DNA of 64,000 bases, from NCBI GenBank assembly GCA_018417955.1, contig JACTVC010000002.1:2542001-2606000 (forward strand), in the 5' to 3' direction. Shown here piece by piece: positions 42,956 to 47,832 of the stretch. The notes beneath the pieces were generated by a model. It saw only the letters and a program-made list of their open reading frames with translations. It was not told where the DNA came from and made no database searches. Within the stretch, counting starts at the first letter, position 1, and every line of letters starts with the position of its first letter. Source of the DNA: Laccaria trichodermophora. Taxonomy: Eukaryota; Basidiomycota; Agaricomycetes; Agaricales; Hydnangiaceae. A program made the translations under genes and the position numbers.

Positions 42956-45351
42956 CTACGAGTTCCCTTCAAGCTTCCTCCGCTTTCCCTTTCTCACCTC
43001 TGTAATTGCACTCTTCCGCTTTACACTCTCCACGAGGTTTTGTAGGCTCTTGTCCCCGACTACTGCGCCCTGTGCTCTTTTAGACGCAGGCCCGTCTTCT
43101 GGTTCTTGTTTTGAACGTTGTTCGCGCTGGCGTTTCTGGCGTTCTTCTAGTAGAGCGGACATGCCTTTAGTCTTTTTGAATCTGGTGCAACAAAGAAGGT
43201 CAACAACAAATCTGACGAAAGGAATATGATAACATACTGTGGATTGCTCGGGTCAATGGCAAACTGATGGTCCTCGTGGAGTGCTTTGAAGCGATCGTCC
43301 TTGACGTTGATCACAAAGTCCTCTTGGATTTCTTGATCTTCTTGATCTTCCTTCTTCCCTTTCCTACCTTTCCTTCCCTTCTTTTTCTCGGCTTTTATGA
43401 CCGACTTGAGGTTGAAATGTCGAGGCTCAGTATTGGGATTATCAGATGCAACGAGGAGTGCAAGCTCTTCCGCAGTGACCTCTCGATTTGAGATCTCAAC
43501 GTCGCCTTTTTCGTGATGGCCTGCAACCCCTTTCTTCTGCCGGCGATCTGTCCTTGACTGTGCGTCCGACTTGACCTCCACAACATCCTCGCTCTCAACG
43601 TCGAAGAAGTCATCTCTGACGTTCTCGTCGTTCTTACTGCTAGCATCTTTCACCTCATCCTTCCTCCTTTTCTTCTTTTCCCTGATCTTCCGCTGGTATT
43701 TCTCCAATGTATTCTCGTCGTCTTGGCCCTTTTTATCAGTCAACCCAGGGGTGAACGTGACCTCCATATCCACGTCTCCGGCAGCGCCACCATCTTCCCC
43801 CCAACCCTCCGGCATAGCCTCGTCGTTACCTCCAAGCAGCAGTGCGCGTACCTTGTCGCGTGAAGTTTTCTTGTCCATCTGGCGGCTGTTACTTGCTCGT
43901 TCTGGCTCATCGTCCTCAGACTCGGACGATGTATTCGCGAGGTATGCCTTGAAGTCCGCTTCATCGATCTCTTTACGAGTCAGGGTACGTCGAGTGATTT
44001 GGTTTCTCTCGGCGTCGTCTTCATCCCAAGTCAACTTGACTTTCGAGTGTCGCAAAGCCTGAAATACGGTTCTTGTCAAAACGCCAAACATACGGTATGT
44101 CAAAACGGCTAACATCGGTAACAAAGTCTATGCCTTTGTTGTTTGCGTTCAAATTCTCTGTTGCTTCATCTCTGTATTTACCGAGTGAGACTGGTGTAAA
44201 GGCAGCAATAAATTGCAAACCTTGGCTCGCTTTCGAAAGTCATATCATCAGGGACGAAACTCAAATCAAAGACGTTCGCGGAACGCTCCAGTTCCGTCCC
44301 TTCCAGCTCATTGTAAATATGTGACGCTGCGTTGACCGTATCGCAAGTTATAATGGCATAATAATACCTAGAAAGAGGCTCATTCAGCTTAAATATACTT
44401 TTGTTATACCAAAGAAAAAGTACCTCATTCGTTCGAGTTGGTATTTCCTCAGTGCGTCCTCATTGTAATCATTCTCCCCACCAACATCGTAGATGTTCTT
44501 TTCGTCCACTTCCTCATCGTCGTTCAATTTCTTCTTGAATATCTCCGGAGGGGGGCCTTCCTTTTCTTCCTTGGCCATTCTTTCTTGTCCGAACTGACTT
44601 GGATAAACGCGAACGTTTTGCACCTTTCCCCGCACGACGTTAACCTGGCCGCCCTCATTTTTACGGCGTTTCTGATCCGATTGATTTTCGGACGCGCGCA
44701 GGAGCGGAGCAATGGAAGAAACAAGCGAAGAGCAGATTTTGTACAAGTGCCCAGCACGAACATGATCCCAGTCAAGATTGACTACGGCGAGTCGCCTGGT
44801 GCGTGTCGCTTGCTCTTTTTCCTCATCTTCATCTGGACGGTCTTTATTGTAAGCAGCGGCCTGGGCTTCGAGGTCAGCGAAGGTATCTTCATCCAAGTCA
44901 ATTTCGGCCTCTTCATCGTCCCGAGGGATTGTAATGGGCCGCGCGCGGTCGCCCCCAATAGTAATAATCCTTCCAGGATCGCTATCATTGTCGCTTTCAT
45001 CCTCTGCGTCATCATCCTCGTCCGAAGATTCAAGTAGAACCTCTCCCCGAGCCAAATCTGGCTTAGTGGTGACCTCGGTAGCGTCCTCCTCTATACGGTA
45101 GAATTTCCTCAAATTGTCTTGGTCATTCGTGGCGGAAATTGGCCGTCCGTACTTGTCAACGCGGACTTGACATAGTGATAAGGGCAGGGCAGCGACGCAA
45201 ATTCATAGTACGCACCTGATTTGCCCTTCTTCTCCTTCACCTTCTCAAAGACGCCTTTGAAGCGTTCATCAACTATGGCTTTTGCCTGATGTTTTTTGGG
45301 TCTACGAAAGCGTGGATCAGATTTGATTCTGGCGAACCTAGGATCTGACAT
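42956..45351 (-). CDS. ESF1: Esf1-like nucleolar 18S rRNA processing factor
   Basis: Nucleolar protein of the SSU processome needed for 18S rRNA. The start at 45351 (MSDPRFARIKSDPRFRRPKK) is the family's signature opening with repeated DPRF. Next come VDERFKGVFEKVKEKKG and GRPISATNDQDNLRKFYRI, then an acidic stretch. The RRM-like core has TRRLAVVNLDWDHVRAGHLY and VRVYPSQFGQERMAKEE. It continues YQLERMRYYYAIITCDT, LERSANVFDLSFVPDDM and DALRHSKVKLTWDEDD. A long acidic/basic charged tail follows, containing the NUC153 motif FVINVKDDRFKALHEDHQFA with IDPSNPQFKKT. It ends KGKRRKLEGNS. Four or so introns. Confidence 0.92.
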
Positions 45352-45678
45352 TTTGTGTGGAGGTGAGCACTTTTTTGTCACGTGTGATAACGAGTCTATT
45401 TTGGGCTTCTGTGATGGCGACCATCAACGATTTTCCTATATATTTGAAGTAGCTAGCCATCTTCTCCTTTCCATCCCTCTTCTTGTATTTCTTCTGTAAG
45501 TTTCCTATTCGTAACCCCCTTACTCGTGTCTGATTTTCATACCGCAGTTTTTCGTTCATTTACTAGGCCGCAGGCGCGCCCTAGCATTATTTTCAGTTTC
45601 GTTCTCTTTCGTTGTCGTTCTCATCTCCACGCAGAAAACGCACAACCTTTTATATTTCTTGTCCACAATCCTTTCACC
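45352..45678. promoter_or_regulatory. Divergent promoter region of ESF1 and the repeat-peptide gene
   Basis: This 327-bp gap separates the Esf1 start (45351, leftward) from the secreted repeat protein start (45679, rightward). It is pyrimidine-rich on the plus strand before the latter gene (runs of CTTTC and TTCTC), a common fungal core-promoter trait. I see no clear TATA box. Confidence 0.5.
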
Positions 45679-46471
45679 ATGCTTTTCCGACCTACTACTT
45701 TTGCAGTGTTTGCTCTCCTCCTGACTGGTCAGGTTATCAGCGTCCCCACGCCAAGGCCTGTCAAGGTAAGTCGGCTCACCTCGAAAATGGGCAGTTGTAA
45801 CCCCTTTTTAGGGCTTGATTGGTGAAGAAGACGAGCGCGCTTTGGAGCCGTTGGAGACCATCCAAATATACCGGATGCGCCAGGTTCTCTCACCTGAGTG
45901 GGATATTATCTCTCGTCGCCAAATCCCAGCAGAACAGGCAGTAAAATCACCTGCAGGGCAGATCGTTCCATACAAGCGACAGATCCCCGCCGAAGAAGCC
46001 ACCAAATCGCCTGACGGTAATATTGTCCCTTACTCTCGTCGCCAAATTCCAGAGGAGCAGACGGTCAAGTCACCTACCGGACGGATCATTCTATACAGAC
46101 GACAGATACCTACGGAAGAAGCAACTAAAGCCCCTGACGGAAGAATAATCCCTTACTCTCGTCGACAGATTCCGGCAGAGCAAGCCGTACAGTCACCGAA
46201 TGGACAGATTATTCCATACAAACGACAGATCCCCGAAGAAGCGTCAGTCAAAGCGCCTGACGGCAAGATCGCTCCGTACTCCCGTCGTCAGATTCCGGCA
46301 GAGCACGCGGTCAAGTCACCGATTGTGCCATACAAACGACAGACCCTGGAAGGATTGTTAACCACAGCGCCTGACGGCAAGGATATCGTTCCGTACCCCC
46401 ACCGTCAGATCCCAGCTGAGCCGGCGTACAAAAGACAGACTGAAGATGGAGATGATCTCAACCGTCGCTAG
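45679..46471 (+). CDS. Secreted precursor with Kex2-type tandem peptide repeats
   Basis: The ATG at 45679 opens a 29-residue first exon that is a clear signal peptide (MLFRPTTFAVFALLLTGQV, likely cut near VIS-VPT). A 46-nt intron (45766-45811) leads to exon 2. After a 36-residue leader ending IISRR come ten segments, nine ending in RR or KR and one in HR, and each starting with Gln. The first six alternate two types. The 20-residue type reads QIPAEQAVKSP..IVPYKR. The 21-residue type reads QIPAEEATKSPDG..VPYSRR. Later units are shorter or diverged and the last is acidic. Total 248 residues, no cysteines in the repeats. Kexin would cut after each dibasic pair, releasing about ten peptides with N-terminal Gln (able to form pyroglutamate). 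The architecture matches fungal Kex2-processed repeat proteins; the receptor and role are unknown. Confidence 0.85.
45920..46468 (+). repeat. Ten tandem peptide-coding repeats ending in dibasic sites
   Basis: Unit starts are at 45920, 45980, 46043, 46103, 46166, 46226, 46289, 46340, 46406 and 46436. Units 1, 3 and 5 have 20 codons and units 2, 4 and 6 have 21, so the array expanded as a 123-bp two-unit block copied at least three times. Units 7-10 (17, 22, 10 and 11 codons) have decayed or diverged. Conserved positions are Q-I-P-x-E at the start, S/A-P-x-G in the middle and I-x-P-Y before the basic pair. Confidence 0.9.
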
Positions 46472-46773: not shown

Positions 46774-47832
46774 ATGACAGAATACGACTATTCACCCGAG
46801 GCTTATGATCGTTACCTCGCTACCCAACGGCGCATTGCCAACTGGGTCGACCAGACTGAGCACCACAGATCTCAATTCGGTCCAACCACCCAGTCCGTCG
46901 CTGACTCCTCAAATTCCCGAACGAGGCACCACCGTCATTATTATCGTCCCCCTTCCTCCGATTCTGGTTCAGATGACTCCTATGCAGCTGGGCCCGGCTA
47001 CCCAGGTCCAATGCCAGGTCCAATGTTCGGCTCAATGCCTCTGCATAGTCCTCCTCCTCCTCCTATGTATCCTCAGCAGCCAATATACCACCAGCCAATG
47101 GTACCTCCGCTGCTTTCACCAGGATACCCATACCCGCCTACCTCTCCGCACTACTACGACAATCACCGTCGATCGTCCCGCTCATATAGACGCTCACATT
47201 CCCAATCTCCCCGTCACCCCTCAGCTTTCCGCTTTACCCCTCCACCGACCTCTCCCATCTATTCACACGGCTACCCACCTCCGCCTATGGTCGGGTATCC
47301 TCCTCAAGGTTTCATCATGATGCCACCGCCACCAATACCCAGAGGAAGGAAAATGTCTGTTATGGTGAGTTTAGCCTCTTTTCTTCGCTTACTACCCACT
47401 TCGGTCTTCAATCATTCTTACTCTTCGTTGTCTCTTTGTCGCAGTATCTTTAAATCACCTCTTACCTTGGAAATCCCCTAGTCTGCTGAAACACCGTCTG
47501 CTCGTGTTGCTCCGCAAGCCGACGTCTATTTACCACATCATCAACTGGTACCTCCCTCAAACTTGCCTCAGGGACAAGGTTCAGCTGGTGTCGTCTCATC
47601 GCAGTGGCCTGCGTACACCGCTGCGCCTCCCTCACACCCTCTGTTTATTACACCCGGCGGTGCAGCAGCTGTCGTGACGCCACCTCGTATTCCATATTCA
47701 GCTGGAGCTCAACAAAGCTCGGCCGCTCTCCATGTCCTCCCACCGAACTTTCCTTTGAAAACACATCTACCCATACATCAACGAATGTATGGTACACATG
47801 GAAAGCACTATTTTCGCCGAAGCGTTGGCTAG
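46774..47832 (+). CDS. Pro/Tyr/His-rich low-complexity protein
   Basis: I recognise no domain. The start at 46774 reads MTEYDYSPEAYDRYLATQRR, a short possibly helical lead ending IANWVDQTEHH. Then there is a long region dominated by Pro, Tyr, Ser and His, with blocks such as GPGYPGPMPGPMFGSM and SPPPPPMYPQQPIY. A Ser/Arg patch (RRSSRSYRRSHSQSPR) follows. One intron (about 47365-47481) joins KMSVM to SAETPSAR. The end is basic (YGTHGKHYFRRSVG). No signal peptide or membrane segment is visible, so it is probably intracellular and disordered. A TATA box upstream suggests regulated expression. The ORF is long, clean and spliced, so the gene itself is credible. Confidence 0.65.

Follow-up and report, generated by a model that had tools for sequence, protein, structure and literature searches.

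Analysis of a 64,000-nucleotide stretch of genomic DNA, referred to below in its entirety as the window, revealed a two-exon gene whose product is very probably a Kex2-processed repeat protein (KEP), a precursor that is cut by kexin into capped linear peptides of the Coprinopsis cinerea KEP 497993 family. Counting against this explanation are one HR site, a degenerate tail, a spare residue after the conserved core and the retention of peptides in kex knockouts. An unannotated gene is now linked to a conserved mushroom KEP family with peptides seen in tissue; the window KEP is an ordinary member, and the interest lies in the family itself, which is widely conserved in mushrooms and chemically verified. 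Usable facts about this family include cores in both Sordariales and agaricomycetes, precursors that often stop at Tyr, candidate processing enzymes and a neighbouring gene common to Amanita thiersii.

Gene model and repeat segments

The gene lies on contig C12 of a genome assembly of 59.0 Mb in 77 contigs, in which a single copy was found, matched as its two exons. Its position, its leader ending in RR and its ten segments, with their starts and ends, are exactly as described in the sequence-only reading of this DNA.

45679..46471, plus strand: KEP gene, two exons, 248 codons plus stop, the stop codon ending at 46471
45679..45765, plus strand: exon 1, signal-peptide-like N-terminus (aa 1 to ~21) and start of the leader (splice model and hydropathy; the N-termini of relatives align)
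45766..45811, plus strand: intron of 46 nt, GT-AG, GTAAGT...TTTTTAG (donor 45766, acceptor end 45811)
45812..46471, plus strand: exon 2, remaining leader, ten repeat segments and stop codon (splice model)
45812..45919, plus strand: exon 2 part of the leader, which contains the motif PLETIQIY and ends in ISRR, the first dibasic site (aa 64-65 = RR)
45920..45979, plus strand: segment 1, QIPAEQAVKSPAGQIVPY-KR
45980..46042, plus strand: segment 2, QIPAEEATKSPDGNIVPYS-RR, nearest to the C. cinerea peptide (13/18)
46043..46102, plus strand: segment 3, QIPEEQTVKSPTGRIILY-RR
46103..46165, plus strand: segment 4, QIPTEEATKAPDGRIIPYS-RR
46166..46225, plus strand: segment 5, QIPAEQAVQSPNGQIIPY-KR
46226..46288, plus strand: segment 6, QIPEEASVKAPDGKIAPYS-RR
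46289..46339, plus strand: segment 7, QIPAEHAVKSPIVPY-KR, shortened copy
46340..46405, plus strand: segment 8, QTLEGLLTTAPDGKDIVPYP-HR, diverged copy with a monobasic end
46406..46435, plus strand: segment 9, QIPAEPAY-KR, stub
46436..46468, plus strand: segment 10, QTEDGDDLN-RR, unrelated acidic tail
45910..46320, plus strand: 123-nt tandem array, 3.3 copies, 75% matches (DNA-level repeat analysis)

The reading depends on removal of the intron, since the frame that opens at ATG 45679 stops after 48 codons if left unspliced and the repeat frame without splicing lacks a hydrophobic N-terminus. The N-terminus of the spliced product is the only strongly hydrophobic stretch of the protein (best 11-residue mean 2.2, and at most 0.43 past residue 30).

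Eight of the ten segments begin with QIP and two with QT; nine end in KR or RR and one in HR. The QIP segments comprise six full units (20-21 aa including the basic pair), one shortened copy (17 aa) and one stub (10 aa); of the QT segments, one (22 aa) is a copy that has diverged and the other (11 aa) is an acidic tail unrelated to the repeat. The kexin-type repeat architecture proposed earlier is borne out by these ends and by nine [KR]R-Q junctions, an array not due to chance since the same residues, shuffled 20,000 times, yielded 0.29 such junctions on average and never more than 4. Regarding the earlier estimate of about ten peptides, ten segments are indeed present, but the last four are a shortened copy, a diverged copy, a stub and an unrelated tail, and the number of recognisable copies is therefore nearer seven or eight.

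The 123-nt period of the array implies that segments were duplicated in pairs, one member of each pair with a KR or RR end and the other with an SRR end. The two unit types also differ within the array (45910-46320), the KR/RR units having SPxG (x = A, T or N) and the SRR units S/A-PDG, and two product isoforms may be released from them in equal amounts. Pairwise comparison of the six full units, with the Ser of SRR omitted for register, gave 11-17 identical residues out of 20. As dS was undefined (-1) in 10 of the 15 unit pairs and 0.86-1.24 in the other five, synonymous and nonsynonymous differences were pooled over these 15 non-independent pairs, giving a pS of 0.76, a pN of 0.21 and a pN/pS of 0.28; changes were commonest at third codon positions in every one of the pairs. 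The units are under purifying selection; the pooled values show that the copies are old and that the peptide sequence, rather than the DNA, has been kept.

Relatives of the precursor and the reported Coprinopsis peptide

In C. cinerea, KEP 497993 gives rise to pyro-QIPAELPTKSINGNIEPY and its +K form, identified by LC-MS/MS and confirmed with synthetic standards, and the peptides of this precursor are lost in the kep knockout (Vogt et al., 2022; PMC9769878). This detection supports the earlier expectation of N-terminal Gln converted to pyroglutamate. The QIPAEL peptides were found mainly in premature fruiting-body caps and, in the accessible text, are described as undetectable in culture supernatant; pyro-QVPVDEPA, which also derives from KEP 497993, was found in supernatant and mycelium (PMC9769878). 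The best window unit shares 13 of 18 residues with QIPAELPTKSINGNIEPY, against a maximum of 9 in 2000 shuffles, and a Termitomyces unit shares 16 of 18. The window KEP and the C. cinerea peptide are thus likely to belong to the same, already reported family. The earlier description of the family as unreported does not stand: by 2022 the peptide had been detected, and its precursor had been described as conserved in agaricomycetes, with no fewer than 13 homologues known from other species (PMC9769878). Searches of the open-access literature for six peptide strings found none outside that paper, searches for six core strings found no paper with any of them, and the string IPAE is absent from the main text of PMC6339444.

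One single-sequence and two profile searches (14, 27 and 52 rows, scoring in the two profile searches being confined to the candidates with the most words in common, 7998 and 7995 of them) yielded 67 distinct relatives or candidates, among which P0012, P0061, P0062, P0065, P0066 and P0067 are weak or doubtful (the last three with E 0.03-0.07). Among the named sources are Amanita thiersii, A. muscaria, A. polypyramis, Hymenopellis radicata, Termitomyces and five Lentinula species, together with Tricholoma matsutake, Agrocybe chaxingu, Desarmillaria tabescens and Candolleomyces; Serendipita vermifera represents the Sebacinales, and Rhypophila decipiens and a Naviculisporaceae species the Sordariales (Ascomycota). 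The Sordariales proteins P0029 and P0042 are short precursors (103 aa) with three IPAEV..PF-like units ending in GRR, and suggest that the family extends into Ascomycota. Two alignments were used, A1 with 12 of the 14 proteins of the single-sequence search plus the window protein, and A3 with 56 of the 67 relatives plus window exon 2. A leader motif resembling PLxTIPIY (PLETIQIY in the window protein) was recognised by eye in 10 of the 12 relatives of A1, the exceptions being P0013 and P0014.

A hand-made pattern located 222 cores in 65 of the 68 proteins (67 relatives and the window protein); many of its positions are fixed, and a table of core residues is therefore not independent evidence of conservation, while the residues downstream of the core are free. 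After the core, KR or RR follows within 0-1 residue in 154 cases and after two residues in 5, a monobasic R within 2-3 residues in 19 and another basic residue within four in 10; the precursor ends in 30, and none of these applies in 4. At the sequence level, basic sites are kept across the family, the point that the sequence-only reading had proposed to check in orthologues. Where a basic pair lies close to the core, it is preceded by one spare residue in 125 cores and by none in 29.

Regarding the ends of the precursors, the last residue is Y or F in 34 of the 67 relatives (Y in 32), against 5.7% for Y and F together among all residues; short JGI contigs may have cut off some precursor ends. 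The full core pattern precedes the end in 32 of these 34. Ten of 18 named proteins end on Y and eight do not (P0001, P0025, P0026, P0027, P0029, P0036, P0038 and P0042), with the qualifications that four of the ten are rows from closely related Lentinula, that P0064 is partial and that P0012 (ncbi, unnamed) is omitted. A last copy that needs no trimming would mark the end of the product, and with about half of the precursors stopping on an aromatic residue, that end is suggested to be Tyr. The precursor in the window has RR rather than Y at its end, along with two degenerate final segments and one HR site.

Strict alternation of two unit types was considered as a family trait and rejected, since it does not stand out in seven of the 10 proteins with at least five 17-residue cores, which indicates local duplication history rather than a family rule. 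The observed alternation was reached by 31 of 2000 shuffles in P0015, and it is weaker in P0003 (194 of 2000) and in the window protein (240 of 2000). In P0015, the ends TKR and SKR alternate.

The family probably corresponds to KEP type G-1/P-2 (#7) of Umemura (2020), which comprises 64 proteins from 62 strains, 49 genera and 2 phyla, has the widest genus spread of the KEP types, is high in Tyr, covers Basidiomycota and Ascomycota (Cyphellophora being named) and has DUF3328 neighbours in 0 of 64 proteins in the accessible text (PMC7329392). The correspondence is indirect and is drawn from the phyla, the Tyr content, the lack of DUF3328 and a fingerprint of Pfam names. DUF2188, DUF1648 and TruB_C, which are included in the G-1 list (PMC7329392), occur as chance hits in 5, 3 and 2 members, respectively, of the 57 sequences scanned here, and TruB_C is the sole Pfam hit of window exon 2. 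Chance hits to 41 families were obtained; among the 25 listed, 3 are in the G-1 list and 22 are not, and by eye none of the 25 appears in the list of another type in the accessible part of the same table. As real domains of the family, these Pfam names (DUF2188, TruB_C, DUF7330 and others) were rejected as chance hits, of use solely as a fingerprint.

Proposed maturation and function

The genome contains two kexin loci, on contigs C26 and C45, both with the solved kexin 1ot5 as best match (E 1.1e-33 and 1.5e-31), a frame for a Kex1-like serine carboxypeptidase on C3 with a membrane-anchor-like tail (best match KEX1 1ac5, E 6e-8), one DPP-IV-type gene on C23 and an M28 gene on C45, two frames of which match glutaminyl cyclases (best E 1.9e-15 and 4e-21). 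The kexin, Kex1-like and glutaminyl cyclase loci thus provide a candidate enzyme for each proposed maturation step. The KEP precursor would be secreted and cut by kexin after basic pairs, the basic residues of the released peptides would be trimmed by Kex1, and N-terminal Gln would be cyclised to pyroglutamate, giving a predicted set of some eight linear products, each capped and 15-21 residues long, and two short tail pieces. Calculated [M+H]+ values of the pyroglutamyl forms are 1878.9960 for QIPAEQAVKSPAGQIVPY and 1998.9654 for QIPAEEATKSPDGNIVPYS. Because Kex1 takes off basic residues only, KR units would yield ...PY-OH, and ...PYS-OH is expected from SRR units. Trimming by Kex1 alone would not reach Tyr in the 125 cores with one spare residue; a further carboxypeptidase, or acceptance of the additional residue, is assumed family-wide. 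By analogy, the window species presumably matures its KEP peptides as C. cinerea does.

In C. cinerea, the tested KEP peptides were still present in the kex knockouts examined, including the kex2a/c double knockout, the QIPAEL peptides being examinable in the kex2a strain only, and from this retention the authors inferred redundancy among three KEX2 proteases (PMC9769878). Retention in single-kexin and kex2a/c knockouts would also fit a different account, in which the repeats fold together into a single secreted domain and the dibasic pairs are there by coincidence. The AlphaFold2 model of exon 2 (57-row alignment) has isolated beta-bridge residues recurring at regular spacing, about one pair per unit (45920-46288), which lends this account some support and, at low confidence, may point to a hairpin-like preference of the peptide. 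The same model has a pTM of 0.20, a mean pLDDT of 60 and zero residues at pLDDT >=90. Little weight can be placed on models of such low confidence, but exon 2 shows no confident fold of the kind that the earlier reading had set against its own proposal. With basic sites kept family-wide and cut peptides detected in C. cinerea (PMC9769878), a folded domain is scarcely credible, and processing by kexin is retained as the explanation.

Regarding function, the sequence-only reading had offered a signal, a repellent or a wall component. Release of surface-active wall or repellent peptides would have a precedent in Ustilago Rep1, likewise a kexin-processed repeat precursor, and the occurrence of QIPAEL peptides mainly in premature caps, with none in the supernatant, would fit material held in tissue (PMC9769878). 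The predicted window peptides, by contrast, are hydrophilic to neutral (GRAVY -2.0 to 0.0), carry a net charge of 0 to -4 and are without Cys, and KEP 497993 expressed in yeast gave peptides that were recovered from the medium (Vogt et al., 2022; PMC9769878). A repellent or wall role therefore gains no support and is judged improbable.

Defence or competition against bacteria, fungi or animals is somewhat less improbable, yet still unlikely. The KEP 497993 knockout grows and fruits normally, and, given the lack of an axenic knockout phenotype, Vogt et al. suggested that KEPs function in interactions with other organisms (PMC9769878). Against defence, synthetic KEP peptides, not named in the accessible text, were inactive on five bacterial strains (PMC9769878), the predicted window peptides are neutral to acidic, and strong constraint with an apparent single copy would be less typical of arms-race peptides.

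Signalling in fungal interaction, as distinct from a role as wall material, repellent or antibiotic, is tentatively preferred because of the sequence constraint, the apparent single copy, the wide conservation and the hydrophilic, neutral character of the peptides; its likelihood is put below an even chance. Counting against it, in C. cinerea, are the normal growth and fruiting of the knockout and the failure to detect the long peptides in culture supernatant, as described in the accessible text (PMC9769878). A bolder version of the signal reading, which is rather doubtful, would make IPAE..K..G.I.PY one ancient, Dikarya-wide secreted hormone, near single copy, Tyr-ended and pyroglutamate-capped in mushrooms, Sebacinales and Sordariales, with a conserved putative receptor, the kexin array serving to deliver many near-identical doses. 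To our knowledge, no assigned peptide hormone of such a type is known in mushroom fungi, and a receptor or phenotype for KEP peptides would therefore be a real advance.

Genomic neighbourhood and comparison with known systems

The gene is flanked by two genes.

44384..45351, minus strand: divergent upstream neighbour ESF1 (rRNA processing), given for context (RRM_ESF1 E 1.8e-25 in ORF 44384-45112; ATG 45351)
46774..47481, plus strand: downstream neighbour MTEYDYSPEAYDRY..., N-terminus MTEYDYSPEAYDRYLATQRRIANWVDQTE, Pro-rich, without a Pfam family

The divergent ATGs of ESF1 and the KEP lie 328 bp apart, and the short gap of 327 bp between them (45352-45678) possibly holds a shared promoter. 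Over 35 aa, the Pro-rich neighbour is 80% identical to the latter half of the A. thiersii KEP model P0001, which is probably a fusion of two genes; as the A. thiersii model runs from the KEP into the Pro-rich protein, the gene order is common to both species. Other Pfam hits in the window are housekeeping-like, among them a CS-domain protein, RPL4, a Rad51-like protein, a 2-hydroxyacid dehydrogenase, AMG1 mutase, a histidine-biosynthesis protein with a glutamine-amidotransferase domain, RRP36, Pex16 and ICE2.

This neighbourhood bears on the proposal that the KEP is the precursor of a cyclised RiPP of the dikaritin, UstYa type. Dikaritin precursors share the plan of signal peptide and kexin repeats, and 14 UstYa matches at exon level are spread over contigs C1, C16, C20, C23 and C28 of the genome. 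None, however, lies on contig C12, and UstYa, methyltransferase and peptidase families gave no Pfam hit at E 0.001 in 49 of the 65 listed window ORFs and one 90-aa ORF, so that the earlier indication against a RiPP cluster in the window is upheld within this scope. The C. cinerea peptides are moreover linear and minimally modified (PMC9769878), and DUF3328 neighbours are lacking in type G-1 (PMC7329392). A RiPP origin is accordingly very remote, and linear peptides remain the expected products.

Elsewhere in the genome, the UstYa loci L006-L013 on C1, C20, C23 and C28, with more than one each on C1, C20 and C28, are candidates for real dikaritin clusters. Five M28 peptidase matches (L015-L019) lie within about 153 kb on C6 (772-925 kb), possibly a local expansion.

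Compared with known systems, the window KEP has the common plan of ascomycete alpha-factor precursors, with a putative signal peptide, a leader and tandem peptides separated by kexin sites, but its basic pairs are not followed by runs of XA/XP dipeptides of the Ste13 type, and no MF_alpha domain was hit in Pfam scans with E limits of 1 and 0.1. The mating pheromones of basidiomycetes are prenylated a-type peptides (PMC9769878). Rep1 of Ustilago maydis is alike as a basidiomycete kexin-processed repeat precursor, likened here by description only, and its peptides form amyloid-like fibrils (PMC9769878), whereas the predicted window KEP peptides are hydrophilic and neutral. Dikaritins of the ustiloxin type have the same precursor plan but differ in that the window contig is without a UstYa match and the product of the KEP relative is linear (PMC9769878). 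The nearest likeness is to C. cinerea KEP 497993, compared through its published peptide alone: the window protein may differ in alternating KR/RR and SRR and in its degenerate tail ending in RR, and shares with it kexin-separated units, N-terminal Gln and a QIPAELPTKSINGNIEPY-like core, behind a putative signal peptide.
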